50,521 nucleotides of DNA from the NCBI GenBank assembly GCA_036389795.1, contig DASVWD010000025.1:1-50521 (forward strand), in the 5' to 3' direction. This document shows, piece after piece, positions 19,611 through 50,521 of this stretch (within the stretch, counting starts at the first letter, position 1; every line of letters begins with the position of its first letter). The stretch comes from Longimicrobium sp. (GTDB taxonomy: Bacteria > Gemmatimonadota > Gemmatimonadetes > Longimicrobiales > Longimicrobiaceae). The translations under genes were made by a program, and so were the position numbers. Below the pieces are notes generated by a model. It did no database searches. It was not told the origin of the DNA and was given only the letters and a program-made list of their open reading frames with translations.

Positions 19611-20111
19611 TCACCATTCGAACAGGGACGCCTGCCCGTGGGGCTCGTGCGCGGCGGCGTCGAGCACGGCCAAGAAGAAGGCGGTGAGGTCGGGCAGCGC
19701 GCTGGAGTCGATGCGCACGAGGCTGGCTTCCTCGTTCTCCGCCGCCCGACGAAGCTCCGCGAGCACCGCCGGCGCCTCGCCTCGGGCGGTGGCCCTCGCC
19801 GCCTCGCGCAGGAGACGAGCGGCGCGGCCGTCCCGTGAGCCCGGCGGGCCGTCTCGCGGCAGGGTGTCGCAGAAGCGGTGGCCGACGGCGGCCGCGGCGT
19901 CGTGCGCGCTCTCCAGGAGGCGCGCCATCGCGCCGCTCACCGCCGGCGGGAGCAGGAGCAGGATGCCTCTCCGGCAGGGCACGGCGGGCGCGGACGCTTC
20001 GGATTCGGCCAGCTCGCACATCCGCTCGATCGCCACCGCGACCCCGGGGAGCGACCCGAGCGTAGCGGCGGCGCCGAGCAGGAGCAGCGCCGGCGGCGGG
20101 GTGGCGCTCAT
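19611..20111 (-). CDS. Hypothetical helical protein ending in a clamp-binding-like motif
   Basis: The protein has 166 residues. ATG 20111 has GAGGG eight bases upstream. It is mostly Ala-rich helix with a hydrophobic patch (GILLLLPPAVSGAMARLLE). Its last residues are QASLFEW, close to the bacterial sliding-clamp-binding consensus QL(S/D)LF, encoded at 19620-19634. No other domain is recognised. It is followed at a distance by a hypothetical protein and preceded by another small gene; an operon is likely. The clamp link is inference from the tail motif and the presence of dnaN on the same element. Confidence 0.55.
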   Translation of the reverse strand: MSATPPPALLLLGAAATLGSLPGVAVAIERMCELAESEASAPAVPCRRGILLLLPPAVSGAMARLLESAHDAAAAVGHRFCDTLPRDGPPGSRDGRAARLLREAARATARGEAPAVLAELRRAAENEEASLVRIDSSALPDLTAFFLAVLDAAAHEPHGQASLFEW

Positions 20112-20136
20112 CGCTGTGTCCCTCACGGACGAGGTC

Positions 20137-20466
20137 TCAGGCGGCGTCGCGGATCAGGTCGAGCTGGTGGGGCGCAGCGCGCTGGACGCGGCGGAGCGCG
20201 CGCCGGATGTGGCCGGCGTAGACGGAGACCGCGCGCCAGTAGACGGCCATCGGCGCCTTTCGGGTCTTCCAGCTGTGCTCCGCCCGCTCGGCGGCTTCGA
20301 GGTGGATCTCGTGCAGCAGCTCGCAGAGGACCTGCAGCACGTCGGGGTGCAGCGCCGCCAAGCGCTTGAAGGCCCGCAGCCCCAGGATCGGGTTGCGGAC
20401 CTCGGCGAGACTCGCCCGTTCCACCTGGCTGGACCGCGGGTCCGCCCGTCCGGCGCTCGGCACCAT
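20137..20466 (-). CDS. Hypothetical helical protein
   Basis: The 109-residue protein starts at ATG 20466 beside GGAGGGGAG. The frame is open further upstream, but there it would cross a recurrent leader box. It is rich in Leu, Ala, Arg and His and predicted to be helical throughout, with a middle segment LHPDVLQVLCELLHEIHLEA. No family is recognised. It lies 25 bases upstream of the gene ending in QASLFEW and is probably in the same transcript. Confidence 0.5.
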   Translation of the reverse strand: MVPSAGRADPRSSQVERASLAEVRNPILGLRAFKRLAALHPDVLQVLCELLHEIHLEAAERAEHSWKTRKAPMAVYWRAVSVYAGHIRRALRRVQRAAPHQLDLIRDAA

Positions 20467-20537
20467 CTCCCCTCCGGGATCATTGGGATCGCACGCTCCT
20501 CCGGCCGTAGACGCTCCCCTTCCGGGCTCACCAGCCA

Positions 20538-20559
20538 CCCGCTTTTCACCGGCGGGGTC
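20538..20559 (-). promoter_or_regulatory. Recurrent GAAAAGC leader box
   Basis: On the minus strand this reads CCCCGCCGGTGAAAAGCGGG and lies about 72 bases before the ATG at 20466 and just after the stop of the upstream gene. It is one of a family of similar boxes ahead of genes in this element. No strong hairpin follows it in this copy. Confidence 0.45.
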
Positions 20560-20581
20560 GTCGCGCTGCAGGGGAGGAAGG

Positions 20582-20857: not shown

Positions 20858-20887
20858 GATCGCTCCAGTAGGGGGCCGCGATGGCGG

Positions 20888-22009
20888 TCAGCCCCGGTAC
20901 AGGTGTCCGTCGTACGCGATCGCGAGCAGCGCTGAGCCCTCGCCGTCGGGCGCCCAGACGCCGACGAAGCGCTCGGGCTCACGCCGGGACAGGTCTAGGG
21001 CGGCCGCCGTGGCGGACGCCGCGTCGGGATGCGCCGGGTCGTCGGGCGCGGGGCACTGCACGTCCCCGGTCCGGTAGCTGCGCGGATCGGTCATCAGGTG
21101 ATCGGGAGGAGGAAGGAAGAGCGGCGGGAGCGTCACGTCGCGCGCGCGAGCCGGGGATTCCCCCCCGGGCGCGGGCGGGACCTCGGCCGGCGGGAGCGAG
21201 GTGGCAGCTCCTCCGAAGAGCTCCATCTGCGGGGCCCCGTTGCGGATCTCGTCGGCGAAGCGCTCGAAGCGCTGGACGGTCCAGAGCGGGAAGGCGGAGT
21301 CCAGGGAGTCGGCGCCCACCTCCCGGGCGAAGCGCGCCTTCGCCGGCGTCCCCGCCCGGGCGTAGTGGAGCGCCAGTCCGCGCGCCTCGCACCAGCGCTT
21401 CCAGCGGGCGGCGTGGGTGACCTTCCAGGTGCTGGAGCCGCCCAGCAGGATGCCGCGGAAGTGCATCCAGGTCGGCAGCCCGTCGAACCAGCCGCAGACG
21501 GGGCACGGGCGCTCCAGGTGCCCGGGCTCGATCCCCGGCTGGACGGCGAGGTAGAACCAAGTCTCTGAGAGCGGGTCGTCCTCCTCGTCGTACTCCACCC
21601 CGTCGGTCACCGCGTCCTCCGCGTTCATCCGGAAGTCTTCCCAGAAGCGGTGGTACCACTCGACGGACGTGGCGAGGCTCCGCTCGCCGTCGCCGACGCG
21701 GTCCGGGAGAACCACGATCTCCGGCTGGCGGTCCCAGCCGAGCTCGCCGGCGCTCAGCACCTGCTCGTACCAGGTGTCGTAGTCGTATTCGAGCTCGGAG
21801 GCCCGGCCGCCGGCGAGGAGCGCGTCGACAGACGCGAAGCCGAGCGTGCGCGCCTGCGCGGCGGCCTGCGCGTAGACGCCGTTGTCCAGCATCCAGGGCT
21901 CGTGCGGCCACGGGTCGAGCCGGCGGTCGACCATGCAGCGCCCCCAGCCGAGCTGCTTCAGCCGGCCGATCATGCGGCGGCTGCGCGTGTGCCCGACGAT
22001 CACTCGCAT
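20888..22009 (-). CDS. TGT/DpdA-like protein (phage-type deazaguanine transglycosylase family)
   Basis: The protein has 373 residues. The order of motifs fits the tRNA-guanine transglycosylase fold of phage DpdA-type proteins: WMLDNGVYAQA (about 52), PEIVVLPDRVGDG, WFYLAVQPG, ILLGGSSTWKVT, a following RAGT segment and the strand GADSLDSAFPLW. DpdA enzymes exchange guanine for 7-deazaguanine precursors in DNA. A CPVCG pair sits in the middle, and QMELFGG (about residue 261, 21215-21229) resembles a sliding-clamp-binding site. A 110-residue C-terminal extension is Pro/Ala-rich. The ATG overlaps the end of the preceding gene by ten bases. No preQ0 synthesis genes are in the window, so the substrate is unproven. 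Confidence 0.6.
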   Translation of the reverse strand: MRVIVGHTRSRRMIGRLKQLGWGRCMVDRRLDPWPHEPWMLDNGVYAQAAAQARTLGFASVDALLAGGRASELEYDYDTWYEQVLSAGELGWDRQPEIVVLPDRVGDGERSLATSVEWYHRFWEDFRMNAEDAVTDGVEYDEEDDPLSETWFYLAVQPGIEPGHLERPCPVCGWFDGLPTWMHFRGILLGGSSTWKVTHAARWKRWCEARGLALHYARAGTPAKARFAREVGADSLDSAFPLWTVQRFERFADEIRNGAPQMELFGGAATSLPPAEVPPAPGGESPARARDVTLPPLFLPPPDHLMTDPRSYRTGDVQCPAPDDPAHPDAASATAAALDLSRREPERFVGVWAPDGEGSALLAIAYDGHLYRG

Positions 22010-22290: not shown

Positions 22291-22368
22291 GGTCGGGTTC
22301 CTGAATACGCGGCGAGGGGACCGGAACGGTTTCCTCGGTCGTGGGGATGGATGGGGGCGGCCGCGGGC

Positions 22369-26575: not shown

Positions 26576-27199
26576 TCAGAGGAGACTGAGCTGGAGAGGT
26601 GGATCCGTGTCCGTCGGCGGCAGGTCGGAAGGCGGCCGATTCCCGTCCGTGGCCGGTGTTTCCGGAGGGGTACCGGTTCCGGGCCGCACCCCCAGGAGGC
26701 GCCGCGCTTCGGCCAGCAATGCGGCCCGGCCGATCCTGCGCTGGCGAGGGCCGGGAAGCTCGGTGATCACGAGCGACGGGCCGCGGGAGTCGAAGTGGAA
26801 GCCCACATTACCCCGCCAGAAGCCGAGCGTCGTCATCTCGTCGGGCTCTCCGGCCGGCCCGCCCATCTCCTGCACGATCGCCGCGGCGAGCTGCGCGTCG
26901 GACATCGCCGGCCAGTGGGCGCGGCGGCACGCCCAGCGCTCCTCCGCACCCTCGAACGGGTGCAGGGCGATCCAGAGGATCCGCTCCCGGTCGAGGTCTC
27001 CGCCTTCGCCCCGGTACCGGCCGAGGAGGGACATGCGGCCCGAGCCCGCGCTGCGGGACACCCGCGCGCCGGTCATGACCTCCCAGGCCGCCAGCGCCTC
27101 GCTCTCCGGGGTTCCGGGCGCCGGAGCCTGGGGGAGCAGGTCCGGGCCCAGAGTGCAGAACGGGGGGAGCACGGGCCCGGCGGGGGTCGGCGGATTCAT
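26576..27199 (-). CDS. Hypothetical protein ending in QLSLL, coupled to the cytosine methyltransferase
   Basis: The protein has 207 residues. ATG 27199 overlaps the stop of the C5 methyltransferase gene as ATGA, so the two are made together. The middle has conserved-looking patches (RERILWIALHPFEGAEERWA, TLGFWRGNVGFHFDSRGPSL), and the last 40 residues are Pro/Thr-rich and disordered. The chain ends exactly at QLSLL (26579-26593), a near-perfect sliding-clamp-binding peptide on a flexible tail. The function is unknown; pairing with the methyltransferase and the clamp is inferred from position and motif. Confidence 0.65.
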   Translation of the reverse strand: MNPPTPAGPVLPPFCTLGPDLLPQAPAPGTPESEALAAWEVMTGARVSRSAGSGRMSLLGRYRGEGGDLDRERILWIALHPFEGAEERWACRRAHWPAMSDAQLAAAIVQEMGGPAGEPDEMTTLGFWRGNVGFHFDSRGPSLVITELPGPRQRRIGRAALLAEARRLLGVRPGTGTPPETPATDGNRPPSDLPPTDTDPPLQLSLL

Positions 27200-29802
27200 G
27201 CGGCGATGCGGTACTCGGGGGTGAACACCGGCGCAGGGCGGGGCGCGCGGGCGCTCCGCGCGGCCGCCAGCGGGACGACGCCGGGGATGTTGCGGATCTG
27301 CGAGAGGACGAGCGCCCGCGCGGTGGATACCGGGACCGAGTTGCCGACTTGGCGGGTCTGCTCGGCCTCGGTCCCCACGAACTCGTACGTCGTCTCCTCG
27401 TCGTCGAACGAGTGGGAGCGTGCCAGCTCCCGGTTGCGGAGCATGCGGAAGGCGACGTCGATCTGCACCAGGACTCCGTCCACCCAGATTATCCGCCCGC
27501 CGCCGAGATCGATCCGGTCGGCGACGGCCGGCCTCGCCTCCGCGAGCGGCAGCTCGAGCGCGCCCTGCGCGGCCGCATCCGCTCCCGGGCCGAGGAGGCT
27601 GAGCTGGTCGCCCGCGCTGGCGCTCACCACGCCCACCTGCGAGCCGCCGCCGGTGAGCGTGGGGATGGGGAGCCCCACGTGCCGCGGGGCCGGGCCGCCG
27701 CCCATGCGGCTGTGGCGCGGGGAGATGATGTAGGACTCCGCTATCCCACAGCCGGTCTTGCCGGTCACGGTCCACAGCGGGTCCCCCGTCCCGCGCACGC
27801 ACGCGCCCCCCGCGCCCGCGTTGTCGAAGCGGACCATCACGGGGACGACGAGCGCGCCGGCGCCGTGACTGGTCACCGCGGGCGCAGGGAGGTCGATCCG
27901 GTGGACGCGTGGCGCCTGGCCCGGCCGCTCCCCGAACTGCGGCACCAGGTACGGTGTGATCGCCGGCAGGCAGAAACCGTAGCGCGCCTTGGTGGTGACG
28001 GCCCCGAGCGGCGAGCGGAGCGCGGCGGCCGCGTTCCGGCGCCCGACGTTGCTCCCGAAGAAGGCCGCGACGTACCCCTGCACCGCGTCGTGGACGTGCG
28101 CGCCGCGGACGGCGGGATCGAGCAGGGCGAGCCCGCGCGTGGCGGTGAGGCCCTGCAGTGGCTCGCCCACGTCGCGCACCCGCCGGCCGTTGTTGCCGCT
28201 CGGGCCGTCGCCGTGGTTGACGGCGACGAGGTACTGCCGGAGCGCCGGGCCGCCGGCACGGGACGCGAGAACGGGGACGGCGAGCGAGATCGCGCCCGCG
28301 GTGGCCACTGCGGGGATCGGCTGCGTGGTCGGCCGCGGGGCGCCGCAGGACTGCTGCGAGAGCACGTACGCCTGCACCCCGGGCCGGGCGAGCCAGAGCC
28401 CGCCACCGGTGCCGGTCAGCACGGGCGCGAGCGGCTGGTGGACGTCGCGGGGTGCGTTCTGGGTGCGGTTCGCGCAGGTGTACGAGAACCACCCTCGGTC
28501 CCGGACGCTGGCCCGCGAGAGTGCGACGTGCAGCCCGCCGGCGGTCACGGTGGGCGCCGGGGCGGCGACCGGGCGGAAGGTGTTGGTCCCGTACAGCATC
28601 ACCAGGTACGGGTCCGGCGCCGCCGCCGGCGCGACGAGCTCCGCCGAGCCGTCCGGGAGGTGGAGGAGCTCGCCCGGATGGAAGACGACCTTCGCTTCGG
28701 CCGGATCGACGCGCACCGCGCCGTCCTCCGTCCAGCGGAAGCAGAGGAGCGCGCGGCGGTCGGGCCGGTCCACCCCGGCCTCGTCCAGCCGCACCAGCTC
28801 CATCTCCTCCTCGATGGCCGCCGCGAACGCGTGGCGCCACGGGCCCGTGAAGCGGTCGGTCCCCGCCCGGACGCGCCGGAGGGTGTTCACCGCGAGCGCG
28901 CGGAGCTGCCGGCTCCCCCTGGGCGCCTTGTAGCCTTTCCGGCGCGGGCGGCGGTTGAAGATGGAGGTGCCGCGGTCGCTCCAGTCGATGATCTCCGCGG
29001 CCCCGCGCCACTTCGGGAGCATGCGCCCATGGGCGTCCACGCCGCCGTGCTTCGAGTGGGTCGCCTGGGGCCACTTGATCGCGACGCCGTCCTTGCGCGC
29101 GATCATGAACCAGCGCTGCCGGCTGGTCGGGTCGCCGTAGTCGGCGCAGGTGAGGATGCGCCACTCGACCCGGTAGCCGCGCTGCTCGATCTTGCGGATC
29201 CAGCGGCGGAAGTACTCGCCCTTGCGCCCCTTCATGGGGCGGTCGGTCTTGGGGTCGATCCGGCACCAGTCTTTGAACTCCGGGACGTTCTCGCAGATCA
29301 GGACGCGGACGTCGATCTCGTCGATCCAGCGGATGATGGCCTCGGGGTCCATCCGCTTCTGATCGCTGTTCGGCCGCCCCCCGCGCGCCCGCGAGAAGAA
29401 CACGCAGCTGGGGCTGCAGAGCAGCACGTCCAGGTAGCGCTCCGGGACGATGTCCACCGGGTTCGCCGCCCGTACGTCCTCGATGTAGTGGCGGACGTGG
29501 GGGTGGTTGAGCCGGTGCGTGGCGATGGCGACGGGCCAGTGGTTGACGGCGGCCATCACCGCCTCCAGCCCCAGCTCCCGGAGCGCGCGCATCGCCCCGC
29601 TGGTGAAGCCGCCGGCGCCGCAGAACAGGTCGCAGAGGAGGAGCACGCGACGGACGCCGTGCCGGTCGTAGGGACCGACGATCCGGTCCATCCACCCCGA
29701 GACGTGTCCGGGCCGCTGGGCGCCCGCCGCGGCGCGGTCGGGCGCACGAGGCCCCGGCGGGCGCAGCCCCCCGGGCGCGCTCCTGTCGGCGATGGCGATC
29801 AC
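27196..29802 (-). CDS. Large C5-cytosine DNA methyltransferase with repeat-rich insertion
   Basis: The protein has 868 residues with all key C5 methylase motifs. Motif I is LLCDLFCGAGGF (55-66), the catalytic cysteine is in SPSC (130-133), ENV is at 171-173, and the QRW motif (SRQRWFMIAR) is near 229-236. Motif X is RQVGNSVP far downstream at 817-824. Between motifs VIII and X lie about 500 residues with at least six loosely repeated units of the form P-x-x-T-(V/L)-T (for example PTVTAGGLHVAL, PTLTGGGSQVGV), known from phage-type methylases. QLSLL at 733-737 resembles a clamp-binding site. GTG 29802 is the longest start; ATG 29691 is also possible. The target sequence is unknown. Confidence 0.9.
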   Translation of the reverse strand: MIAIADRSAPGGLRPPGPRAPDRAAAGAQRPGHVSGWMDRIVGPYDRHGVRRVLLLCDLFCGAGGFTSGAMRALRELGLEAVMAAVNHWPVAIATHRLNHPHVRHYIEDVRAANPVDIVPERYLDVLLCSPSCVFFSRARGGRPNSDQKRMDPEAIIRWIDEIDVRVLICENVPEFKDWCRIDPKTDRPMKGRKGEYFRRWIRKIEQRGYRVEWRILTCADYGDPTSRQRWFMIARKDGVAIKWPQATHSKHGGVDAHGRMLPKWRGAAEIIDWSDRGTSIFNRRPRRKGYKAPRGSRQLRALAVNTLRRVRAGTDRFTGPWRHAFAAAIEEEMELVRLDEAGVDRPDRRALLCFRWTEDGAVRVDPAEAKVVFHPGELLHLPDGSAELVAPAAAPDPYLVMLYGTNTFRPVAAPAPTVTAGGLHVALSRASVRDRGWFSYTCANRTQNAPRDVHQPLAPVLTGTGGGLWLARPGVQAYVLSQQSCGAPRPTTQPIPAVATAGAISLAVPVLASRAGGPALRQYLVAVNHGDGPSGNNGRRVRDVGEPLQGLTATRGLALLDPAVRGAHVHDAVQGYVAAFFGSNVGRRNAAAALRSPLGAVTTKARYGFCLPAITPYLVPQFGERPGQAPRVHRIDLPAPAVTSHGAGALVVPVMVRFDNAGAGGACVRGTGDPLWTVTGKTGCGIAESYIISPRHSRMGGGPAPRHVGLPIPTLTGGGSQVGVVSASAGDQLSLLGPGADAAAQGALELPLAEARPAVADRIDLGGGRIIWVDGVLVQIDVAFRMLRNRELARSHSFDDEETTYEFVGTEAEQTRQVGNSVPVSTARALVLSQIRNIPGVVPLAAARSARAPRPAPVFTPEYRIAA

Positions 29803-33009: not shown

Positions 33010-33555
33010 TCAGAAAAGGACTCCCTGGCCGTCCTCCCACCGGTTCACCGGCTCCTCGGGAGGAAGCTCCCGGGCCGGGACACCGAACGCACATCGGAAG
33101 GCGTCGCACACCGCGCCGCGTTCCCACCTGACCTTCGAGTCCCCGGGAACATCGCCGGGGCGCGGCTCGACGGCGAGGGTCCAGTAGAAGGCGCGGCGGC
33201 CCATCGCGTCCGGTGGATCCCAGCCGCCGGCGAAGACAACGGTGCCCATCCACTCCGGGGCGACGCCGCGATTCCGGTAGACGGAGTTGCCACCGCACAT
33301 CAGGTTCGCCGAGAGGAAGTCGGAGACCTGCCGATCGTCCATCCCTTTCCCGCGCCCGCGCTCGAGGAGTGAGATCTGGTAGGAGGAGACGTAGCGGCCC
33401 GGCGACGAGACGAGATCGCCGTACGGGTACAGGCGCGCCTCGACGGCGGCGCGCAGAAGGTCCAGGTGAGGGTCGCCGGTATCGGGCCACTGCACCGGGC
33501 GCGAGGGCGTCCAGCGCTCCTCGGCCGCGTGGCGGCGTTTCGTTCGTGCAGGCAT
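33010..33555 (-). CDS. Hypothetical protein ending in QGVLF, coupled to the Mom-like gene
   Basis: The protein has 181 residues. ATG 33555 overlaps the stop of the Mom-like gene as ATGA. The central part has several aromatic and glycine residues (MGTVVFAGGWDPPDAMGRRA, FYWTLAVEP), suggesting a beta fold. The last five residues are QGVLF (33013-33027), which resembles a sliding-clamp-binding peptide. No family is recognised. By position it should act with the Mom-like and SWIM proteins. Confidence 0.6.
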   Translation of the reverse strand: MPARTKRRHAAEERWTPSRPVQWPDTGDPHLDLLRAAVEARLYPYGDLVSSPGRYVSSYQISLLERGRGKGMDDRQVSDFLSANLMCGGNSVYRNRGVAPEWMGTVVFAGGWDPPDAMGRRAFYWTLAVEPRPGDVPGDSKVRWERGAVCDAFRCAFGVPARELPPEEPVNRWEDGQGVLF

Positions 33556-36367: not shown

Positions 36368-37273
36368 CTACGCGGCGGACGCGGTCACGGGTGCGGGGAG
36401 GAAGCCCAGGCGCACGCCGCGCAGGCGCACGTCGGCCGCGAGCTCCCGCGCGTCTACGCGGCCCCACTCGACGCCCCGCAGCAGCACCTCGGCGGCCAGG
36501 TCGCGGTAGCACTGGGCTCCGGTGGAGCGCAGCCGCGGGTCTTCCTGGAAGATGGTGCGGAAGTGGTCTTGCGCCCGCTCGATGGTGACGTTCCGGCGGA
36601 TCACGGTCTCGAACACCGCGGTGCCGTAGTCGGCGCGGATCTCGGCCTCCCGCTCCTGGGTGTCTACGAACTGGTAGTTCAGGTCGGTGAGCAGCACGCC
36701 CATGATGTCGGCCATCGGCTCGGCGCTGGTCGCGCGCAGTGCGATCAGGCGTTCCATGAAGCGGAAGAGCCGCCCGGTGCCGTGAAGGGAAAAGCGCTCG
36801 AGCTTGGTCGGGATGATGAAGCGGTCGCCCGCGATCATGGCGAGCGTCATGGGCAGGCCGATCCCCGGCGGGCAGTCGAAGAGGACGACGTCGAACGGCG
36901 TCTCCAGCATCGCGAGCGCGTCGCGGAGCCGGGTGCGGAAACCGGGGACGCGGGCCAGGCGGATCAGCTCGTCCTCGTCGCCGAGCGCCTCACAGGCGGT
37001 GATGAGGTGGAGGTTGGGGGTGGTGGTCGGGCGGATGGCCTCCTCGATGTGCATCCCCTCCAGCAGGACGCCGCCGAGATTGGGCCCATCGTCCTCGGCG
37101 CCCAGGGTGAGCGCGAATGACGTGCTCGCCTGGGGATCCATGTCGATGATCAGCGTGCGGAAGGAGCGCGACGCGATCCCGATCTCGCCGGCCTGGGCCA
37201 GCGCGGCTCCGAGGTTGATGGTGGTGGTGCTCTTTGCGACGCCGCCCTTGCGGTTGACGATGGGGATTCTCAT
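36368..37273 (-). CDS. parA: ParA-family partition ATPase
   Basis: The 301-residue protein has the deviant Walker A KGGVAKSTTTINLG at residues 9-22, a Walker A' region LIIDMDPQASTS, and Walker B FDVVLFDCPPGIG. This is the ParA/MinD-type ATPase that moves DNA or protein cargo along the nucleoid. No N-terminal HTH is present, so it is the short class. It is followed by two small genes in overlapping order. On an integrative element or plasmid it would secure inheritance. Confidence 0.9.
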   Translation of the reverse strand: MRIPIVNRKGGVAKSTTTINLGAALAQAGEIGIASRSFRTLIIDMDPQASTSFALTLGAEDDGPNLGGVLLEGMHIEEAIRPTTTPNLHLITACEALGDEDELIRLARVPGFRTRLRDALAMLETPFDVVLFDCPPGIGLPMTLAMIAGDRFIIPTKLERFSLHGTGRLFRFMERLIALRATSAEPMADIMGVLLTDLNYQFVDTQEREAEIRADYGTAVFETVIRRNVTIERAQDHFRTIFQEDPRLRSTGAQCYRDLAAEVLLRGVEWGRVDARELAADVRLRGVRLGFLPAPVTASAA

Positions 37274-41600: not shown

Positions 41601-43789
41601 GAGTCGCGCAGCTCCCGCGAGGCGCGCACGGCCCAGAGCGCCTCCTTCTCGACGTGCGCGAACTGCACGTCGGCGCCCGCCTCCAGCTCCATCAGGTCGA
41701 GCACGAACTGCCGGTAGGCCGCGCGCTCGATCCAGGTGGCGCCGAGGGCGACCGCGATCTCGGAGGGCCCCACGTCCGCCGGCTGCACCATCTCCAGCGC
41801 GTGGACGTTGATGCGGAAGCGCGGGTCGTGCTCCGCCGCCTCGCGCGCCTCGCGGAGCTTCCGGCGCACACGCCCGGAGAGGTACTCGTCGTCCGTCTCC
41901 CACGCGGCGGTCGCGGGGTTCAGGAAGATGCGGCCCTCCAGCTCCGCGACGACCTCCTCCTCGGTGCGCCCCCAGAGCCGCGCGATCAGCGGCAGGTCCA
42001 CGCGGGCCGCGCGGTCGAGCGACAGCAGGAGCGCCTCCTCGGCCGAGGACGCCTCCTCCACGAACGCGAACGGCCGCACCACCCGCTGGGTGAAGATCGC
42101 CGCCTTGCGCACCGTGCCGGCCTCGGCGTCGTAGTGCTCCAGCGCGGCGACGTTCATCGCGTACGGGTCGTCCCGGAACGCGTCGAGGTTGGGGCGGCGG
42201 ACGATCACGTTGCCGGCCGCGTCCTCGATCCGCTTCTCCAGGTTCACGGGCCCGTACTGGCGGACGAACGCGTCGTAGGCGCGGTTCAGCTCGCGGCGCG
42301 CGGCCTCCTGCTCCTCCTCGGCGCACTCCTGGTTCTGCGTGCGCAGCACCTCGCGCTGCGCGTCGCGGATCGCGCAGAGGGCGACCACCTTGTAGACGTC
42401 GCGCTCGTGGCGAAGCCCGTGGAAGACCCAGCGGCCCTCCCGCCAGCGGCGCAGGCGCCCGCGCACCACCTTGAACGCCCCGTCGGCGAGCCCCGCCGCC
42501 GCGGCCGCGTCGGCGAAGTCGATCGCGCCGGCCACGCGCCGGGGCTGGTACACGTCCTCCGGCAGCAGCGCCGCGATCCGCGCGAGCTCGCCCTCCAGCG
42601 TGGCGCCCGGGGCGAGGACCACCGCGGGCTCGCACTCCCGGAACTGGCTCTTCCCGGTGAGTCGGAGGTGCCCGGCCATCATCTCGGGGCGGGCGGCGAA
42701 GTACTCGTTGACCCGGGCCGGGCCGTCCGGGGTCTCCACCTCCACGCTCTCCAGCCACGCCGGCCCCTCCGCCGGCTCGCCGGCCTTCCGGCGCCGCAGG
42801 ATCAGCAGGTCGGTGGTGACCCGCTGCACGGCGCGGCCGCGGAAGGCGCTCTCCGGGAGCCGCACCGCCGCCACCAGGTCGGCGCGCTCGGCCAGGTGGG
42901 CGCGCACCGCGGGGTCGAGCGCGTCCAGGGTGTAGCGGCTGGTGACCAGCGCGACGATCCCGCCGGGGCGGGTGAGCGCCACGCTCTTGGCGATGAAGTA
43001 GTTGTGGATGGTGAAGAGGCGCGGGTTGTGGACGGGGTCGTGCACTGGATAGTTGCCGAAGGGCACGTTCCCGAGGACGAGGTCGTAGGCGTCGCGCGGG
43101 AGGACCGCGTGCTCGAAGCCGCAGACCCGGATGTCGGCGGACGGGTAGAGCGCCCGCGCCACGGCGCCGGCCAGCGGCTCCAGCTCGACGCCGGTCCAGC
43201 GCACCCCCGACTCCGGCGGCGGGCCGTACCCCAGGAACGCCCCCGAGCCCATCCCCGGCTCCAGCGCCTGCAGCCCGTCCCACGCCGGCCCTTCGATCCC
43301 CAGCCGCGCGAGAAGGGCGTAGATCCCGCGCACCAGGGCGGCGGGGGTGTGGTTCGCGTTGGGGGTGCTCGCCTGTGCGGCGCGCCACTCCTCCGGCGTG
43401 AGCAGCTCCTTCAGCTCGCGCCCGAAGCGCCCCCACTCCGGGTGGTCGTCCACGAAGACGCCGGGGAACGGCCCCCAGCCGATGTAGCGGGCCAGGACCT
43501 CCTGCTCCTCGCGCGTGGGCTCGCGCGCCTCGTCCCGCAGGACGTGGAGGAGCCGGACCGCCGCCAGGTTGGCGCGTACCCGGGCGCGGGGGCCGCCCTC
43601 GGGCGCGGGGGTCTCGGGGAAGCGGAAGTCGGGGAATCCGACGGGGACCACCACCGTCTTCGTCCCCTCGCCGGCGTCCTCCGGAACGGTGATCACCAGC
43701 GACCCCTCCGGCGTGAAGCCGAAGAAGCCGAGCTGGTCCTCGGACGGGTGCGTGTCGGCGGTGGGGTCGGCGGGAGCGAGCGAGGCCAT
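38639..43789 (-). CDS. Giant N6-adenine methylase-SNF2-type helicase fusion
   Basis: The protein has 1716 residues. Near the N-terminus QLGFFGF (19-25) resembles a clamp-binding site. A methylase domain follows, with LQALEPGMGSGAFLG (motif I) and DLVLGNVPFGNY in place of NPPY. The second half is an SF2 helicase: HVVGAGKTLAAIL (Walker A), WLFVDEIHLYKN (DEIH box) and VEQRDGRGARRGN (motif VI). A coiled-coil tail ends the protein. Such fusions (COG4646-type, related to phage P1 DarB) are carried by plasmids and phages and are linked to protection from host restriction. ATG 43789 has AGGAG close by. The altered NVPF motif occurs in this family and need not mean loss of activity. Confidence 0.85.
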   Translation of the reverse strand: MASLAPADPTADTHPSEDQLGFFGFTPEGSLVITVPEDAGEGTKTVVVPVGFPDFRFPETPAPEGGPRARVRANLAAVRLLHVLRDEAREPTREEQEVLARYIGWGPFPGVFVDDHPEWGRFGRELKELLTPEEWRAAQASTPNANHTPAALVRGIYALLARLGIEGPAWDGLQALEPGMGSGAFLGYGPPPESGVRWTGVELEPLAGAVARALYPSADIRVCGFEHAVLPRDAYDLVLGNVPFGNYPVHDPVHNPRLFTIHNYFIAKSVALTRPGGIVALVTSRYTLDALDPAVRAHLAERADLVAAVRLPESAFRGRAVQRVTTDLLILRRRKAGEPAEGPAWLESVEVETPDGPARVNEYFAARPEMMAGHLRLTGKSQFRECEPAVVLAPGATLEGELARIAALLPEDVYQPRRVAGAIDFADAAAAAGLADGAFKVVRGRLRRWREGRWVFHGLRHERDVYKVVALCAIRDAQREVLRTQNQECAEEEQEAARRELNRAYDAFVRQYGPVNLEKRIEDAAGNVIVRRPNLDAFRDDPYAMNVAALEHYDAEAGTVRKAAIFTQRVVRPFAFVEEASSAEEALLLSLDRAARVDLPLIARLWGRTEEEVVAELEGRIFLNPATAAWETDDEYLSGRVRRKLREAREAAEHDPRFRINVHALEMVQPADVGPSEIAVALGATWIERAAYRQFVLDLMELEAGADVQFAHVEKEALWAVRASRELRDSVRARKVWGTARASAYRLLEDLLNQRATVIYDTVEEDGKEKTVRNADATLEAQEKAQQIADEFTRWAWADPDRADYLVRRYNECFNDVRLRDYDGSHMTFPGLSSALVPDPHQKNVAWQIVSHGNAGMAHVVGAGKTLAAILASMRMRQLGICSKPLHATMNHMLEQYSREFLQAYPEARLLTAHVEDVSSKEKRRLFFARAASGEYDAIIVTHSAFERLGMSKAFEIRFLEAEVAAFEELLQEAIVEEGERSLTVKQIQVVLRQYEARLKAVSHHGGKDENLTFEELGVDWLFVDEIHLYKNAATRTKIAGMPRAAKPSKRSSDLMMKCAWLESLRPGRGVVGMTGTLISNTIAELHVHLRYMAPDLLREYGIEHFDAFAANFIRRTWQLEPSPDGGGFRMRERFHFTNVPELLGIITQRIDIQLAESLYDPPPAAAEAQEQAPEPELSPPPSMQESAWPRIRVRERGPKRLLQLPRPKLFGGRPEVVTAQPSDELLEYTETLVERAERIRDPDEYVDPRVDNMLLVTNDGRKAALDMRLIDLRLPDHPGSKVNLLVEDVFRRWEETQRDRATQLVFCDLSVPRYDGSFSVYNDVRDKLLARGVPAHEIAFMQEANNSRKKAALQAAIRAGLVRVTLGSTVNMGTGTNVQDRILAIHHLDAPYRPSDVEQRDGRGARRGNIWPYLWIRRYVTERSFDLYVWNLLHYKLEMINRVMMGDPSIREIADNDSVTLSYAEVKALAAGNPMILEKANAEAEIARLKRARSAFLDRQIRARAERQDFPRRLEQAEAMLAATRADLARREGTAGEAFRITVAGQLYTKRPEGGAALRRFVEEACHASRGRETVAVGSFAGFELLAAVHPRMDTALILRGARTYEQDVQLFQSPVHLVQSLEAVPRRLDGIAESYEHQVAYLRTQAAQLEGITDEPFPQEEKLNALVARLREIERALRMNEPGERQDLGALEVATVEEEPEEVSDDAEAVAMAA

Positions 43790-44468: not shown

Positions 44469-45665
44469 CTACGCGGCGTGCACCTCCGCCGCGCCGGTGC
44501 ACTCCCAGGCCCGCGTCTCGAGGATGGCGGCGAGCCGCCCCTGCTGGTGGAGCGCGTTGGGGTCTACCTCAGTGATCATCCGCCGCCAGCGCTGCGCGAC
44601 CCACGGCTCGCCGTACGCGGCGACGAGGCGTCTGCGGAGCGCGGCGGCGCCCCGGTCGCCGGCCCGCTTCGGATCCCGACAGTCGTACCAGGCCACGATC
44701 CGGAGCGCGCCGCCGAGCTCCGCCGTCCAGGGGTCGAGCCACATGCCCGCGCCGTAGAGACCGGCCGCGGGCTCGCCGAGCTGGCGGAGCGTCTCCGCGT
44801 TCAGCTCGCCTTCAACTACGTGCACGGTCGGCCGGCGGAGTGCGTCGGCCTCGTAGGGCCAGAGCGGCTTGGCGGCCGCCAGCGTGCGGTAGCGGTTGTG
44901 CTTGTAGTCCGGGTGGTCGGGGAGGAGGTTGCGGAAGCGGATCCCGACCACCTCACCGGCGCGCCGGAAGGGGATCAGGAGCGCCGGGAAGCAGCCGTTG
45001 AAGGGGAGCGTCACCGCTCCGTCCTCCGCAAGCGGGAACCCCGCCGCGGCGAGCTCCTCCATGCCGTAGCTCCCGGCCAGCCGCGCGGCGAGTGCGGCCC
45101 AATCCCGCCGTCCGTCCAGCGAGCGGTAGCCGTACGCCTCCGCCGCGGCCGAGTCGAGGCGGCGCTCGCGCGCCAGGTACGCGGCCCCGCGCCCGGTGAG
45201 CCGCAGACCGTCGAGCACGTCGGAGTAGACCGCCGAAGGGAGGCGCGCGCCCGGGAGCGCGAGGACGGCCGCGAGGTTCCGCTCCTGCGCGCTCGGCTCC
45301 CCGGCGGGTACGGCGGCCGGCCGGGCGCGGGGACGAGACCGGCGGGGCCGCGGCGCGTCCGCGTCGTCGTCATAGACGATGCCGAGCAGGTCGGCGAGGC
45401 GCCGGCAGGCCTCGGCCAGGCCGCAGCCCCAGTGCCGCATCGCCACGTCGAGGTTGGAGTAGCCCCGGCACCCCCGCGGCTGGTCCGCGCCGCACGCCGA
45501 CCAGCACCCGAAGCCCGCGCCCTCGCCCGGGTAGGCGTGGAGCGCGTCCGAGGAGCCGCAGAACGGGCACCCCCACTTCCGCGCCTCGGCCGCCTTCGGC
45601 AGCCCGATCCGCTGGGCGACCGTCTGCGACTCGCGCGCGTTCACCTCCTTCCACGGCAGCGGCAC
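44469..45665 (-). CDS. DNA primase with CHC2-type zinc finger and TOPRIM domain
   Basis: The protein has 398 residues from GTG 45665, with AGGAGG in good position. The N-terminus has a zinc-finger-like cluster (WGCPFCGSSDALHAYPG, then GFGCWSACG). The C-terminal third has TOPRIM-like sequence (VHVVEGELNAETLRQL, IVAWYDCRDPKRAGDRGAAA). It is shorter than DnaG and lacks the helicase-binding tail, as is typical of plasmid and phage primases. It lies next to RecQ and near dnaN, forming the replication group of the element. It makes RNA primers at forks; its partner helicase is not in the window. Confidence 0.8.
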   Translation of the reverse strand: MPLPWKEVNARESQTVAQRIGLPKAAEARKWGCPFCGSSDALHAYPGEGAGFGCWSACGADQPRGCRGYSNLDVAMRHWGCGLAEACRRLADLLGIVYDDDADAPRPRRSRPRARPAAVPAGEPSAQERNLAAVLALPGARLPSAVYSDVLDGLRLTGRGAAYLARERRLDSAAAEAYGYRSLDGRRDWAALAARLAGSYGMEELAAAGFPLAEDGAVTLPFNGCFPALLIPFRRAGEVVGIRFRNLLPDHPDYKHNRYRTLAAAKPLWPYEADALRRPTVHVVEGELNAETLRQLGEPAAGLYGAGMWLDPWTAELGGALRIVAWYDCRDPKRAGDRGAAALRRRLVAAYGEPWVAQRWRRMITEVDPNALHQQGRLAAILETRAWECTGAAEVHAA

Positions 45666-45710
45666 CGGCTACCTCCTGTTGCGGCGTGACGGCGGGCGGC
45701 GGACCCGGCC

Positions 45711-45736: not shown

Positions 45737-47599
45737 TCATCCGGGCCCTCCCCCGCAGCGGTCGCAGTTCCCGCAGCGCGGCGGCGCCTCCTCCCCGAAG
45801 TAGCCGAGCAACGCGCGGCGGCGGCATCCTGCGCCCCGCGCGTACGCCTCCACGGCGTCGACGCGGCGCAGCCGCACGGCGCGCCTCCTCGCCAGGGCGT
45901 CCCAGTCCACGGGGAGCGCGTGGGGCCGGAGCCCGCGGCGGAGCACCCGAGTCCCCGTCTCCTGCTCCCGCCACTCCACCAGCCCCTCCTCCGCGAGCCG
46001 CTCCAGCCGCTCCCGCGCGCGCTTCAGCCCGCCCGTCAGCGCGTCCAGGTCGGCGCGCGCCACCACCTCGCCCTCACCGGGATCGGCGCCGGCGCGGCGG
46101 AGCGCCCGCCAGAGGCCGCGGAGGAACCCCAGGTCGTCCGCCCGGGCGGGACCGGCGAGCGTCGCGGTGATCCGCTCCGGCTCGGCCGCGATCCGGGCGC
46201 GGATGCCGGCCTTTCCCACGGAGACGTGCGATACGACGCCCGCGAGCGCGAGCACGCGGACGCTCGCGTGGAGCGACCGGGCAGCGGGTCCGCCCAGCGA
46301 GCGCTCCAGGTGGGCGAGCGGGCCCGGGAGCCACCCCTCGTCGTCCACGGCGGCCTCCAGCGCAGCGTACGCCTCCTCCACCAGCGCCCGGTCGGGGAAG
46401 CTGCGGTCCAGCAGCAACTCGGCGATCCGCCGGTCGTCGGGGTCGTGGAGGAGGACGCACTCGGCGGGGAGCCCGTCGCGCCCCGCCCGGCCAGCCTCCT
46501 GGTAGTAGGACTCGAGGCTTCCCGGGGCGGCCAGGTGCACCACCGTGCGGACGTCCGACTTGTCGACGCCAAGCCCGAAGGCGTTGGTGGCGACGGCGAC
46601 GCCGACCTGCCCCCCCATGAACTGCTCCTGCGCCTCGGTGCGCGCGGCGGCCGGCAGTTTCCCGTGGTAGGCGACCGCTGGGAAGCCGCATTCGCGCAGC
46701 ACGGCGGCGAGCGCCATGACGTCGCTGCGGGTGGAGGCGTAGACGATGGCCGGCCCCTCGCGCTCGTCCAGGATCTCCAGGACCTGGCGGACCTTGTCGT
46801 CGAACCCGGCCGCGGGGCGGACGCTCCAGCGCAGGTTCGGGCGGTCGAAGCCGGCCACCTGCACCACGGGCGCGTCGAGCCGCAGCACGCTCACGATGTC
46901 GTCGCGCACCTCCGGGGTCGCCGTGGCAGTGAGCGCCACCACCTGCGCCTCCGGGAACGCCGCCCGGTGCCGTCCCAGGCGGACGTACGCCGGACGGAAG
47001 TCGTGCCCCCACTCGCTCACGCAGTGCGCCTCGTCCACCGCGAGGAGGCGGACCGGGAGGCGCCCCACGCGCTCCCGGAACTCCCGCGAGTCGAGCCGCT
47101 CCGGCGAGACGTAGAGGAAGCGGAGCATCCCCGCCTCGGCCGCCTTCACCGCCTCCTCGTTGGCGCGGGGCGTGTTCGTGGAGTTGATGGCGGCGGCGGG
47201 GATCCCGGCGTCGCGGAGCCGGACGACCTGGTCGTGCATGAGCGCGATCAGCGGGGAGACGACGAGCGTGAGCCCGCCCCTGCACAGCCCGCCCAGCACG
47301 TACACGAAGGTTTTCCCGCTCCCCGTCGGCTGGATGGAGACGAGGGTGCGCCCCGCCAGCACGGCGGAGAGCGCCTGCTCCTGCGCCGGCCGCAGCGCCG
47401 GGAGGCCGAAGTGGTGCCGGAGGAGGCTCGTGGCGTCCTCCAGCGAGGGCGCCGCCGCCACACGTGGAGCGGGGCCGCGCGGCCGCGCGGGACGGGCCGC
47501 GCTCCGCGCCCGCCGCGGCGGGGCCGCCACGGGGCCGCCGAGGAGGTCATGGATCGCGTCGGCGTCTGGAGCGATGGTGGGCGATGCGACAGGGGCCAT
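45737..47599 (-). CDS. recQ: RecQ-family ATP-dependent DNA helicase
   Basis: The protein has 620 residues from ATG 47599. After a basic, Pro/Ala-rich lead of about 60 residues it shows all RecQ motifs: LRPAQEQALSAVLAG, TGSGKT, LVVSPLIALMHDQV, LLAVDEAHCVSEWGHDFRP, VALTATATPEV, YYQEAGRAGRDG, and a C-terminal zinc site (CRRRALLGYFGEEA, then CGNCDRC). There is no HRDC domain. RecQ unwinds forks and recombination intermediates 3'-5'. Its place between primase and clamp genes suggests service to element replication; a host copy is presumably elsewhere. Confidence 0.92.
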   Translation of the reverse strand: MAPVASPTIAPDADAIHDLLGGPVAAPPRRARSAARPARPRGPAPRVAAAPSLEDATSLLRHHFGLPALRPAQEQALSAVLAGRTLVSIQPTGSGKTFVYVLGGLCRGGLTLVVSPLIALMHDQVVRLRDAGIPAAAINSTNTPRANEEAVKAAEAGMLRFLYVSPERLDSREFRERVGRLPVRLLAVDEAHCVSEWGHDFRPAYVRLGRHRAAFPEAQVVALTATATPEVRDDIVSVLRLDAPVVQVAGFDRPNLRWSVRPAAGFDDKVRQVLEILDEREGPAIVYASTRSDVMALAAVLRECGFPAVAYHGKLPAAARTEAQEQFMGGQVGVAVATNAFGLGVDKSDVRTVVHLAAPGSLESYYQEAGRAGRDGLPAECVLLHDPDDRRIAELLLDRSFPDRALVEEAYAALEAAVDDEGWLPGPLAHLERSLGGPAARSLHASVRVLALAGVVSHVSVGKAGIRARIAAEPERITATLAGPARADDLGFLRGLWRALRRAGADPGEGEVVARADLDALTGGLKRARERLERLAEEGLVEWREQETGTRVLRRGLRPHALPVDWDALARRRAVRLRRVDAVEAYARGAGCRRRALLGYFGEEAPPRCGNCDRCGGGPG

Positions 47600-47660
47600 G
47601 GAGGTCGCCTGGAGACGGTGGCGGGGGAGCCCCGCCGAGCCGGGCGCCCCCGCCATGAGG

Positions 47661-47671
47661 TGGTACCCCGG
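47661..47671 (-). promoter_or_regulatory. TGGTACCCCGG element upstream of recQ
   Basis: The 11-base element (plus-strand reading) lies 62 bases before the recQ ATG, in the 93-base gap after the Mrr_N-methyltransferase gene. It recurs upstream of parA and in two other gaps. Its role as promoter or operator is inferred from repetition only. Confidence 0.35.
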
Positions 47672-47692
47672 GCCGCGCCGGGCCGCCGGGAG

Positions 47693-48958
47693 TCAGGCCG
47701 CGAAGAGGTCGGCCTGGGCGGGCGGCGCCGGGCGCAGCGGCCCGGGGAGGAAGGAGCGGAAGCCGGGGCTGCGCTCGAAGTGGAAGCTGGAGCCGCGGAC
47801 GTAGGTGAGGGACAGGTCGCAGGCGATCCAGCGGCGGCCGAGCCGCTCCGCGGCCGCGGCCGTCTCCCCGGAGCCGGAGAAGAGGTCGGCCACCAGCCCC
47901 GCGGGCGGGGTGAGGAAGCCGATCACCCGCTCGGGGAGCTCGGGCGGGAAGCGCGCCGGGTGCGGCGGGAGCCCCGTCTCGCGGCAGCGCCGGAAGTAGT
48001 GCGAGTTGCTGTCGGTGTTGGCGGCCGAGAGGAGGGCCCCGGCGATCGCCCCGCCGTTGTCGGCGGAGAAGGCGCCCGGCGCGAGCACGTGCCCGCTCGG
48101 CCGTGCGGCGCCCGCCTCCCCGCCCGCGGCCAGGCGCCGGCGCATCGCCCGGCTGTACGGGCGGAGCACGGCCGTGTTGTCGGCGTAGGGGTGCGGGTGC
48201 TTCGCGAACCAGAGCACCGGCTCGACGTCTGGGACCAGCCGCTCGCGCCGCAGGCACACCCACTCCGCGGGCGCGGGGAGCTTGGCGGGGTTGTGCCAGT
48301 AGAGCGTCTGGCAGAGGACGAGCCCCAGCTCGTCCACCATGCGCAGCACCAGCCGGTGGATCCACGTCGATTCGGCCGGCGCCCCGCGCTCGAACGGCGC
48401 GGCGAGGTTCAGCACCATCGAGCCGCTGTCGCGCAGCTTCGGCCGGACCCGCTCCGCGAGCGTGAGCGCCCAGTCGACCTGCTCGCGCCCGGAGCGCTGC
48501 CCCTCGTAGGCCTTCCGCTGGTCGGGGTAGGGGAGGCTCCCCAGGAACAGGTCGATGGAGTCGTCTTCCACGACCGCCAGGGCGGCCTCCGCCTCCCCCC
48601 AGAGCATCACCCCCTGCTCGGTCACGAACACCTGCACCACCACGCCGGGGAGCGCGTTGTGCAGGGCACGCTCGCCGCGGTCCGTGAGCTCCCACACGCC
48701 GCTCTCGGGTGCGTGCGCCAGCCTCGCCGCCCGGGCGAGCTGGTGCACCCAGCGCACGTGCCGCCCCCACTCGTTCACCTGCGGCCCGGCGGCCCCGGCC
48801 CGCACGCGGCGGGTCCGCTGCTCCTCGTCGAGCCCCGCGGCGTCGGCGAGCCGCGCGCGCACGGTGGCGCTCGTCGCGGCGCCGCCGGCGTCGGCGAGCA
48901 CCTGGAGGAACGGGAAGAGCAGCGCCCCCTGCGAGGGGAGCTTCTTGGCCTCGGACAT
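47693..48958 (-). CDS. Mrr_N winged-helix fused to a DNA methyltransferase, QADLF tail
   Basis: The protein has 421 residues from ATG 48958. The first 100 residues have the layout of the Mrr N-terminal winged helix (LPSQGALLFPFLQVLADAGG, RWVHQLARAARL, GVWELTDRGERAL). The rest is a beta-class N4-cytosine/N6-adenine methyltransferase: DLFLGSLPYPDQ stands for the (D/S)PPY catalytic motif, and DLFSGSGETAAAAERLGRRW is motif I/SAM binding, located C-terminal as in the beta class. The chain ends QADLFAA, with QADLF (47702-47716) resembling a clamp-binding peptide. No cognate restriction enzyme is adjacent, so it looks like a solitary protective methylase. Confidence 0.8.
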   Translation of the reverse strand: MSEAKKLPSQGALLFPFLQVLADAGGAATSATVRARLADAAGLDEEQRTRRVRAGAAGPQVNEWGRHVRWVHQLARAARLAHAPESGVWELTDRGERALHNALPGVVVQVFVTEQGVMLWGEAEAALAVVEDDSIDLFLGSLPYPDQRKAYEGQRSGREQVDWALTLAERVRPKLRDSGSMVLNLAAPFERGAPAESTWIHRLVLRMVDELGLVLCQTLYWHNPAKLPAPAEWVCLRRERLVPDVEPVLWFAKHPHPYADNTAVLRPYSRAMRRRLAAGGEAGAARPSGHVLAPGAFSADNGGAIAGALLSAANTDSNSHYFRRCRETGLPPHPARFPPELPERVIGFLTPPAGLVADLFSGSGETAAAAERLGRRWIACDLSLTYVRGSSFHFERSPGFRSFLPGPLRPAPPAQADLFAA

Positions 48959-48989
48959 GGCTGGAACGCGTGGATGGGGCGCGCGGAAG

Positions 48990-49019
48990 CGTGCCCGGGC
49001 CGACGCGGGCCCGGGCACG
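48990..49019 (-). terminator. Hairpin after dnaN
   Basis: A perfect 12-base-pair GC stem (48990-49001 with 49008-49019) with a six-base loop begins 18 bases after the dnaN stop. The T content after it is low (CTTCC), as in other GC-rich terminators. It lies 32 bases before the methyltransferase ATG and could also be its leader hairpin. Confidence 0.6.
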
Positions 49020-49036
49020 GGGATGGACGCCGCGCG

Positions 49037-50521
49037 TCAGTTGAGGAGCCGGAGCGGCATCACCAGCATCTCCGTCGAGATGCCGTCCTCGTCCTCCACG
49101 GGGCGGAGCATGGCCGCCCGCTCGGGGGCCTTGAAGCTCATCCGCACCTCGCCGGCGGGGAGGTAGCGCAGGAGCTCCAGCAGGTACTGGGCGTTGAAGC
49201 CGATCTCCAGCGGGTCGCCCTGGTAGTCCACGGGCACGTCCTCGTGCGCCGCGCCGAGGTCCGGGGTCTCCACCGAGACGCGCAGCATCGGCCCGCCGAG
49301 GGAGAAGCGGATGCGGTGCGTCTGCTCGCTGGCGACGATGGCCATGCGCCGCACCGCCGCGCTGAGCGCGCCCCGGTCCGCGATCAGGACCCGGTCGTTG
49401 TCCGCGGGGATGACCTGGCGCCAGTTCGGGTACGGCCCCTCGATCGTGCGGGAGACGATCTCCCACCCCTCGCCACGGAAGCCCAGGTGGTTCTGGGTGC
49501 GGGCGACGCGGACCTCCTCCTCCTCGCGCGGCAGGCGCGCCACCATGGCGAGCGCGCGCGGGTGCACGATCACCTCGTGCTCACCGAGCGCCTTGCCGCC
49601 GGCGATGCGCGTAACCGAGAGCCGGTGACCGTTGGTGGCCACCATTGCCATCTCGTCGGGGCCCAACTCCCACAGCACGCCGTTCAGGATCGGGCGCGTC
49701 TCCTCGGTGGAGGCCGCGAACGAGGTGCGCTCGATCAGCAGCGCGAGCGTGGCGCCGGGGACGGTGAAGTAGTTCTCGTCCCACTGGATCCCGGGCGGGG
49801 TCGGGAACTCGTCCACCGGCATGGTCGCCAGCTTGTAGCGGGTCCGGGTCTCCTGGCACCAGAGGTGGAGGGTGTCCTCCTCCAGCCGCACGTCCAGCGT
49901 GCAGCTGTCGGGGATCTCGCGCGCGATCTCCTGCAGCTTCTTCCCCGGCACCAGCACGGCGCCCGGCTTGGCGACCGCCGCCGCGACCGTGCGCGTGACG
50001 GTGGTGTCGAGGTCGGTGGCTGTCATCCGGATCAGCCCGTCGCCCTCGGTGGCGATCAGGACGTTGCTGAGGACCGGGAGGGTGGTCTTCGTCGGAAGCC
50101 CGGCGACCACGGCGGCCAGCCCCGCCTTCAGCACCTGGGGCTTCACCGCGAACTCCATCTCGCGCACCGGCTCCGGCTCCAGGAGCGCGGTCTCGCGCGT
50201 GCCGGCCTCCGCGGCCTCGTTCGGACCGAGGTCCATGGCCAGCGGCGCCTCGCCCTCCGGCACCTCCGCGTCCGCCCCCGCCTGGGCGTCGTGGCCGCTG
50301 GTCGCCGGGGCCGCATCGGCGGCCACGCCCGCGTCGAGCCCCGTCTCCACCTCCCCGGTGGCGGCCGTCACACCGTGCGCCTCCTCCACCACCGCTTCCG
50401 CACCCACCACCTCCGGCCCCGCGCCGGCCGCCGGGCTCTCCACCACCGCACCGGCCTCGGCCTCCGGCGAGACGGCACCCGCCTCGGTCCCGTCCGTGCC
50501 CCGGCGCGACCGCCGCGGCCG
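49037..50521 (-). CDS. dnaN: DNA polymerase III beta sliding clamp with acidic N-terminal extension (5' end open)
   Basis: The clamp core begins near MEFAVKPQVLKAGL (ATG 50158) and has the full length of about 373 residues. It contains LPVLSNVLIATEGD, TATDLDTTVT, VPGKKLQEIAREIP, the second-domain segment RTSFAASTEETRPILNGVLW and the C-terminal end LVMPLRLLN, where binding partners dock. Upstream the frame stays open to the window edge with at least 120 more codons rich in Ala, Glu and Gly, starting at GTG 50446 or beyond the edge. A clamp gene next to RecQ, primase and methylases belongs to the mobile element, not the host dnaA-dnaN locus. The extension is unusual and may be real or a long open leader. 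Confidence 0.9.
   Translation of the reverse strand, partial: RPRRSRRGTDGTEAGAVSPEAEAGAVVESPAAGAGPEVVGAEAVVEEAHGVTAATGEVETGLDAGVAADAAPATSGHDAQAGADAEVPEGEAPLAMDLGPNEAAEAGTRETALLEPEPVREMEFAVKPQVLKAGLAAVVAGLPTKTTLPVLSNVLIATEGDGLIRMTATDLDTTVTRTVAAAVAKPGAVLVPGKKLQEIAREIPDSCTLDVRLEEDTLHLWCQETRTRYKLATMPVDEFPTPPGIQWDENYFTVPGATLALLIERTSFAASTEETRPILNGVLWELGPDEMAMVATNGHRLSVTRIAGGKALGEHEVIVHPRALAMVARLPREEEEVRVARTQNHLGFRGEGWEIVSRTIEGPYPNWRQVIPADNDRVLIADRGALSAAVRRMAIVASEQTHRIRFSLGGPMLRVSVETPDLGAAHEDVPVDYQGDPLEIGFNAQYLLELLRYLPAGEVRMSFKAPERAAMLRPVEDEDGISTEMLVMPLRLLN

Follow-up and report, generated by a model that had tools for sequence, protein, structure and literature searches.

Mutational work has established the QLxLF consensus as a clamp-binding signal in transposases, where it is often located in unstructured sequence (PMC4549789). 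Dnmt1 docks on PCNA (Iida et al. 2002, as reviewed in PMC9690074), and the plasmid methyltransferases M.EcoGIX and M.BceJIII associate with DNA polymerase I (PolI), with the clamp raised as a possible intermediary (PMC7736820). Here, we analyzed contig DASVWD010000025.1 of Longimicrobium sp. (G000:C25; the window is this whole contig, 50,521 bases), in which a mobile-element-like gene block encodes its own beta sliding clamp, DnaN, and holds nine clamp-binding-like peptides, all of them in open frames (Table 1). The motif carriers that can be named, an N4/N6 methylase, a C5 methylase, a DarB-like methylase-helicase, and a Mom-like protein, are DNA-modification enzymes. Judging from sequence, we consider it quite likely that the motif-bearing proteins dock on sliding clamps (the element's, the host's, or both), concentrating DNA-modification enzymes on newly replicated DNA.

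The element resembles each of the described systems in part. Clamp-binding insertion sequence (IS) transposases (IS1634 and others; PMC4549789) are likewise mobile-element enzymes with a C-terminal QLxLF in variable, unstructured sequence, but they use the host clamp and move DNA, whereas here one element combines several modification enzymes with a clamp of its own. Dnmt1 is likewise a DNA methyltransferase that acts on newly replicated DNA and has a clamp-binding motif; it is a single host enzyme paired with PCNA, whereas here the pairing would be between several unrelated bacterial element enzymes and the beta clamp. M.EcoGIX and M.BceJIII resemble the system proposed here in that plasmid-borne modification is linked both to replication and to escape from restriction, but the partner shown for them is PolI and no clamp motif has been described for them (PMC7736820), whereas here an explicit motif occurs on a set of enzymes. 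The DarB-like methylase-helicases of plasmids and phages have the same core protein as the element's enzyme, and the N-terminal clamp motif is found in only part of that family. The element clamp core belongs to the same group as phage- and plasmid-encoded DnaN, from which it differs by a long, apparently disordered N-terminal extension and by unusually many motif-bearing neighbors. The literature searched, mostly non-subscription journals, yielded no paper in which DarB-like, Mom-like, or element-borne methylases are said to carry a clamp motif.

Peptide enrichment and conservation

Genes were called with a trained model, which gave 453 host proteins in ~600 kb of host contigs (~8% of the genome) and 29 element proteins; gene starts are predictions, and N-terminal motif counts depend on them. 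One plus-strand call (44478-45689) was judged spurious and was removed by hand in favor of the primase gene. The motif Q-x-x-L-[FLW] occurred within the last 10 residues of 4/29 element proteins and 3/453 host proteins (Fisher p = 3e-4), and a broader pattern in 5/29 and 4/453 (p = 6e-5); both p values are somewhat optimistic because the pattern came from the same data. Shuffled tails gave a mean of 0.09 matches and never 4 in 20,000. Counted anywhere in a protein, the motif reached 0.94 per 1,000 residues in the element versus 0.38 in the host, and a tight pattern 0.417 versus 0.032. The ratio of forward to reversed motifs was 9:1 for element proteins, compared with 58:50 for host proteins, the reversed form not being enriched, and none of the 13 left-flank proteins of the contig had the motif.

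The same motif is retained in a sister element from another species of the genus (contig G021:C104), which shares, in the same order, dnaN, the methylase with the Mrr N-terminal domain (Mrr_N), the DarB-like, ParA, SWIM, and Mom-like proteins, the C5 methylase, and several proteins without assigned function. At all seven comparable sites the sister has a matching peptide (window/sister: QADLF/QPDLF, QLGLW/QLALW, QGVLF/QGVLF, QLSLL/QLTLL twice, QLGFF/QLGFF, and QLDLI/QLALL). Key residues are identical between window and sister at 20/21 positions and the flanks at 133/247 (54%; Fisher p = 8e-5); the peptides sit at termini or in variable linkers and persist where their flanks diverge. The clearest case is the protein starting at 26576, whose tail is identical at only 7/25 positions and yet terminates exactly in QLSLL or QLTLL; such retention at the end of a diverged tail is the hallmark of selection on a short linear motif. 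The sister is a single genome, and conservation is a two-point comparison except in the DarB-like and Mom-like families. Neither of the two outcomes that the original prediction named as refuting it was observed: the motif is more frequent in the element than in the sampled host proteins, and the peptides are kept in homologous proteins of a related element.

An alternative is that the peptides do not bind clamps and simply result from composition or from some other C-terminal signal. Another such signal does exist, as shown by an excess of -AA protein ends in the element (19010-50521; 8/29 versus 14/453 in the host, p = 1e-5; 4/18 in the sister). We nevertheless think this explanation very improbable: the motif excess holds against shuffles, the reversed motif, and the host control; Q, L, and F are conserved and the flanks are not; and a C-terminal signal leaves the N-terminal motif of homologues, described below, unexplained.

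Table 1. Positions of the motif-bearing proteins, their peptides, the element clamp, and other genes in the window
Feature	Position	Strand	Matches, sister counterpart, and remarks
N4/N6 DNA methylase with Mrr N-terminal domain	47693..48958	-	PF01555 3e-29, PF14338 4e-12; 76% identity to sister
QADLF, 2 residues from C-terminus of N4/N6 methylase	47702..47716	-	sister QPDLF
DarB-like methylase-helicase, 1716 aa	38639..43789	-	PHROG 10089, 1363 bits; 76% identity to sister
QLGFF, residues 19-23 of DarB-like protein	43721..43735	-	same in sister; QLDLF in verrucomicrobial homologues
Mom-like protein, start codon uncertain	33555..34880	-	Pfam Mom 5.5e-6; PHROG 1384 2.8e-5
QLGLW, ahead of Mom-like domain	34797..34811	-	sister QLALW; QLAFDLF in ~31% identical homologue
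Protein without family match	33010..33552	-	52% identity to sister
QGVLF, exact C-terminus of 33010 protein	33013..33027	-	same sequence and exact C-terminal place in sister
C5-cytosine DNA methylase, 868 aa	27196..29802	-	PF00145 2.6e-29; PHROG 116; 77% identity to sister
QLSLL, edge of variable linker in C5 methylase	27592..27606	-	sister QLTLL
Protein without family match, variable tail	26576..27199	-	66% identity to sister
QLSLL, exact C-terminus of 26576 protein	26579..26593	-	sister QLTLL at exact C-terminus, divergent tail
"TGT-like" protein (label of the original prediction)	20888..22009	-	only match PHROG 15826, function unassigned
QMELF, start of linker in "TGT-like" protein	21215..21229	-	sequence; homologue absent from sister
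Small protein without family match	20137..20424	-	73% identity to sister
QLDLI, 4 residues from C-terminus of 20137 protein	20152..20166	-	sister QLALL; overlooked in the original prediction
Protein without family match	19611..20111	-	candidate clamp-motif carrier
QASLF, 2 residues from C-terminus of 19611 protein	19620..19634	-	sequence; homologue absent from sister
dnaN core, beta sliding clamp, 373 aa	49037..50158	-	Pfam DNA_pol3_beta domains 1-3; PHROG 947 1.5e-74
In-frame N-terminal clamp extension, at least 121 aa, low complexity	50159..50521	-	cut by contig end
RecQ-type helicase	45737..47461	-	Pfam DEAD, Helicase_C, RecQ_Zn_bind; no clamp motif found
CHC2/TOPRIM-type DNA primase	44469..45665	-	PHROG 47 and 849; 65% identity to sister; no clamp motif found
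ParA-type partition ATPase	36368..37273	-	Pfam AAA_31 1e-32; 68% identity to sister
SWIM-zinc-finger-like protein	34952..35512	-	Pfam SWIM below cut-off; 65% identity to sister

Carriers, recurrence, and the proposed docking

Eight of the nine peptides had been listed in the original prediction, and all eight lie in open frames where they were placed; QADLF, put there three residues from its C-terminus, is in fact followed by two, AA. The view that the carriers are mostly DNA-modifying enzymes stands for five proteins that are or resemble such enzymes, with the "TGT-like" protein counted as the less sure member; the other four have no assigned function. For the "TGT-like" protein, a sequence-level search of Pfam, NCBIfam, and PDB sequences gave no TGT domain, which leaves that label unsupported, and a distant fold match to TGT/DpdA is possible. 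The Mom-like protein scores 26.6 bits against a Pfam Mom cut-off of 27.1 and is 70% identical to its sister counterpart, and the PHROG 10089 match of the DarB-like protein spans residues 69-1703 (E = 0), covering the methylase and helicase core.

The motif recurs beyond the sister. Three verrucomicrobial DarB-like homologues, 40-44% identical, have a perfect QLDLF in a short N-terminal tail, and in the resulting alignment (QLGFF/QLGFF/QLDLF/QLDLF/QLDLF) Q, L, and the last F never vary, unlike the tail around them; QLGFF, offered earlier as a tentative further case, is a genuine one, kept in the sister and replaced by QLDLF in more distant relatives. An F at the fourth position is also used in this clade, since the host DnaE has QDSFF at the place of the E. 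coli clamp site, QADMF. On viral contigs, 8 of 62 non-redundant DarB-like homologues show a strict motif in the 200 residues that precede the core, where shuffles predict 0.06 and the reversed motif gives 0. A loose motif searched over all upstream DarB tails was uninformative (17/63 versus a shuffle mean of 17.1) and was set aside. Mom-like proteins provide further cases: a homologue that is ~31% identical, on a dnaN-bearing contig (G288:C14/G363:C68), has QLAFDLF at the matching place; in an independent dnaN-bearing element of the same family (G015:C111), a Mom-family protein (Pfam 1.9e-18) begins MTQLSLF and a methylase-helicase begins MQFDLF; and a Mom-like protein of a Microvirga plasmid, near which no dnaN was found, also begins MTQLSLF. 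Scans of viral contigs with the Mom-like, 26576, and N4/N6-methylase alignments returned no relatives.

C-terminal enrichment, conservation in the sister, recurrence in DarB-like homologues, and the independent MTQLSLF of Mom-like proteins together make clamp docking of the motif-bearing enzymes likely. In the mechanism we propose, proteins would dock on beta sliding clamps through Q-x-x-L/F-F/L/W peptides at their ends or in disordered linkers; the enzymes would ride clamps loaded at, or remaining behind, the replication fork, would be concentrated on newly made DNA, and could modify that DNA ahead of host or rival restriction. Binding, recruitment, and timing are what we infer from sequence, early protection from restriction being the presumed benefit. 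The DNA modification encoded by the element is probably coupled to replication, and the earlier suggestion that new DNA is modified at once is plausible. An open question is how mobile elements get their own DNA modified quickly enough to evade restriction and yet avoid indiscriminate modification; if the docking is real, DarB-like and Mom-like enzymes that attach to clamps through a short peptide would offer a simple and directly testable answer. Because the DarB-like family is present on at least 1471 plasmid records, its N-terminal QLDLF could tie anti-restriction to replication across many organisms.

Several observations weigh against the docking proposal. Four motif proteins (19611, 20137, 26576, and 33010) have no assigned function, and the sister lacks a counterpart of two motif proteins (19611-20111 and 20888-22009); the strict motif is missing from 54/62 viral-contig DarB-like homologues; and the motif is absent from most of the Mom-like homologues that sphingomonad plasmids carry, including some that adjoin a dnaN. 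The four small proteins without function also raise the question of whether some of them are not passengers but clamp blockers that would sit on the host clamp and slow host replication in the manner of SocB of Caulobacter, which binds in the DnaN cleft via a clamp-binding motif (PMC9690074). In favor of blocking, their motifs lie at or near the C-terminus and no enzyme signature is present; however, the motif is just as present on clear enzymes, and the 26576 and 33010 proteins are well conserved and folded-looking rather than short peptides. We regard blocking as improbable. Structure predictions for these two proteins were poor (mean pLDDT 39.6 and 44.7, from two-sequence alignments) and too low for fold searches.

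The element clamp and its candidate partners

If the motif-bearing proteins do dock, the element clamp, the host clamp, or both could receive them. The reading of the dnaN core as a beta clamp was confirmed: PF00712, PF02767, and PF02768 each score above cut-off, giving a three-domain DnaN, 58% identical to the host DnaN (G000:C206) and 68% identical to the sister clamp. We compared the peptide-binding pocket at 22 positions, chosen after the pocket of E. coli beta; the element and host clamps are the same at 22/22, and most positions are conserved or similar in E. coli. A difference in peptide pocket between the two clamps is ruled out at these positions; since the pocket is identical, both clamps should accept the peptides, and nothing in it would be expected to let a peptide discriminate one from the other. 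What does differ is the in-frame N-terminal extension of the element clamp, which is absent from the host clamp. Its G+C by codon position (0.88/0.61/0.94) is coding-like, and the sister clamp has an extension of 232 aa (around G021:C104:28489-29184), also of coding-like composition, with a ribosome-binding-site-like CTGGAG ahead of the ATG. This apparently disordered extension is the only visible feature that could confer a distinct role, e.g., enrichment on element DNA, and is the obvious region in which to seek a private clamp function.

The original prediction had made the private clamp the partner of the peptides, and this part of it is weaker and was not supported. In its strong form, the peptides would be tuned to the element clamp, which would be loaded on element DNA and carry the modification enzymes behind its own fork. 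Consistent with this, dnaN shares a gene block with the motif proteins, the N4/N6 methylase gene following directly downstream, and is retained along with them in the sister; the N-terminal extension sets it apart from the host clamp; and two other kinds of dnaN-bearing element carry motif-bearing modification proteins. Against it stand the identity of the pockets, the lack of motifs in Mom-like proteins of some dnaN-bearing plasmids, and the recurrence of DarB-like motifs where no dnaN was found within 7-10 kb, from which it follows that the motif does not require a private clamp. Moreover, the C-terminal motif rate is ordinary (5/395) in seven further phages and plasmids that encode DnaN, which also rules out a general abundance of motif proteins in dnaN-bearing elements, and neither an element DNA polymerase nor a clamp loader was seen within the window. 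We find this strong form doubtful. Somewhat less probable still, in our view, is a dedicated machine: the element would load its N-terminally extended clamp on its own DNA, four or five chemically different modification enzymes and their accessory proteins would travel on that clamp, and the element's progeny DNA would be marked behind the fork while host DNA is spared.

At the other extreme, the host clamp could be the sole recruiter, with the element dnaN put to another use, for instance in replicating the element or in taking the place of the host clamp. The motifs on DarB-like and Microvirga Mom-like proteins without a dnaN found nearby fit this view, as do the identical pockets of the two clamps, and transposases use the host clamp in the same way (PMC4549789). 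However, an intact pocket on the element clamp should compete for the same peptides, and motif density is higher here (5/29 C-terminal) than in three DarB-bearing plasmids that did not figure among dnaN carriers (0/139). Recruitment by the host clamp alone is also unlikely in our estimation, and docking on either clamp or both is the form in which we retain the proposal.

Gene setting and related elements

The window comes from a 7.5-Mb genome in 285 contigs, and the sampled host contigs have a G+C content of 72%. The mobile-element-like gene block runs from ~19 kb to the right contig end with a G+C content of 70-77% and nearly all genes on the minus strand; beside dnaN, the methylases, RecQ, the primase, and ParA, it holds many proteins without assigned function. 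The element is incomplete, because the contig ends within the dnaN reading frame. To its left, a flank of lower G+C (9274-15782) encodes a cysteine-desulfurase-like protein, a PAPS-reductase-like protein (DndC-like by eye), a 1167-aa ATPase, and a DUF4007 protein (Pfam 3e-85), and looks like a phosphorothioation or defense island. On the sister contig, the region upstream of dnaN (L030:15688-20000, L031:1-8346) encodes, by eye, PilM- and secretin-like proteins, prepilins, and a small GTPase, and looks like a type IV pilus or secretion cluster. The -AA ends noted above possibly represent a degradation-type tail; the DarB-like, ParA, SWIM-like, and C5 methylase proteins have such an end in both the window element and the sister.

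The element does not appear to be of the PRTRC type (ThiF plus Prok-E2): a ThiF query had no match in the window's genome (G000) or the sister's (G021), and the same query gave matches in genomes G003, G015, G018, and G288. Three genomes of the same family contain a separate kind of element that joins dnaN, RecQ, primase, ThiF, and Prok-E2 (L082-L087, L089, L090), and the G003 and G015 copies have type IV pilus-like genes nearby, as judged by eye. Its RecQ starts MQTDL(R/C)F(D/E)I in 3/3 genomes, which is perhaps a six-residue clamp motif. A methyltransferase-DnaN fusion in G003 (L083:2390-4996, one 868-aa open frame) was considered and left as unproven, as the codon-position G+C collapses in the linker (0.80/0.83/0.72).

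Clamp-like tails were also seen in more distant replicons. A C5 methylase of a Mesorhizobium phage-plasmid (L102:46260-47579) and a protein of an Ancylobacter plasmid (L107:17011-17817) share a tail (QLNLFLNECEGMCGV and QLDLWPNECEGMCGL) in which a clamp-like motif is followed by a conserved NECEGMCG end. Finally, Rhizobium phage RHph_TM3_3_14B encodes a DnaN as well as a methyltransferase that ends in QLSLFGDAA (L103:36002-36841).

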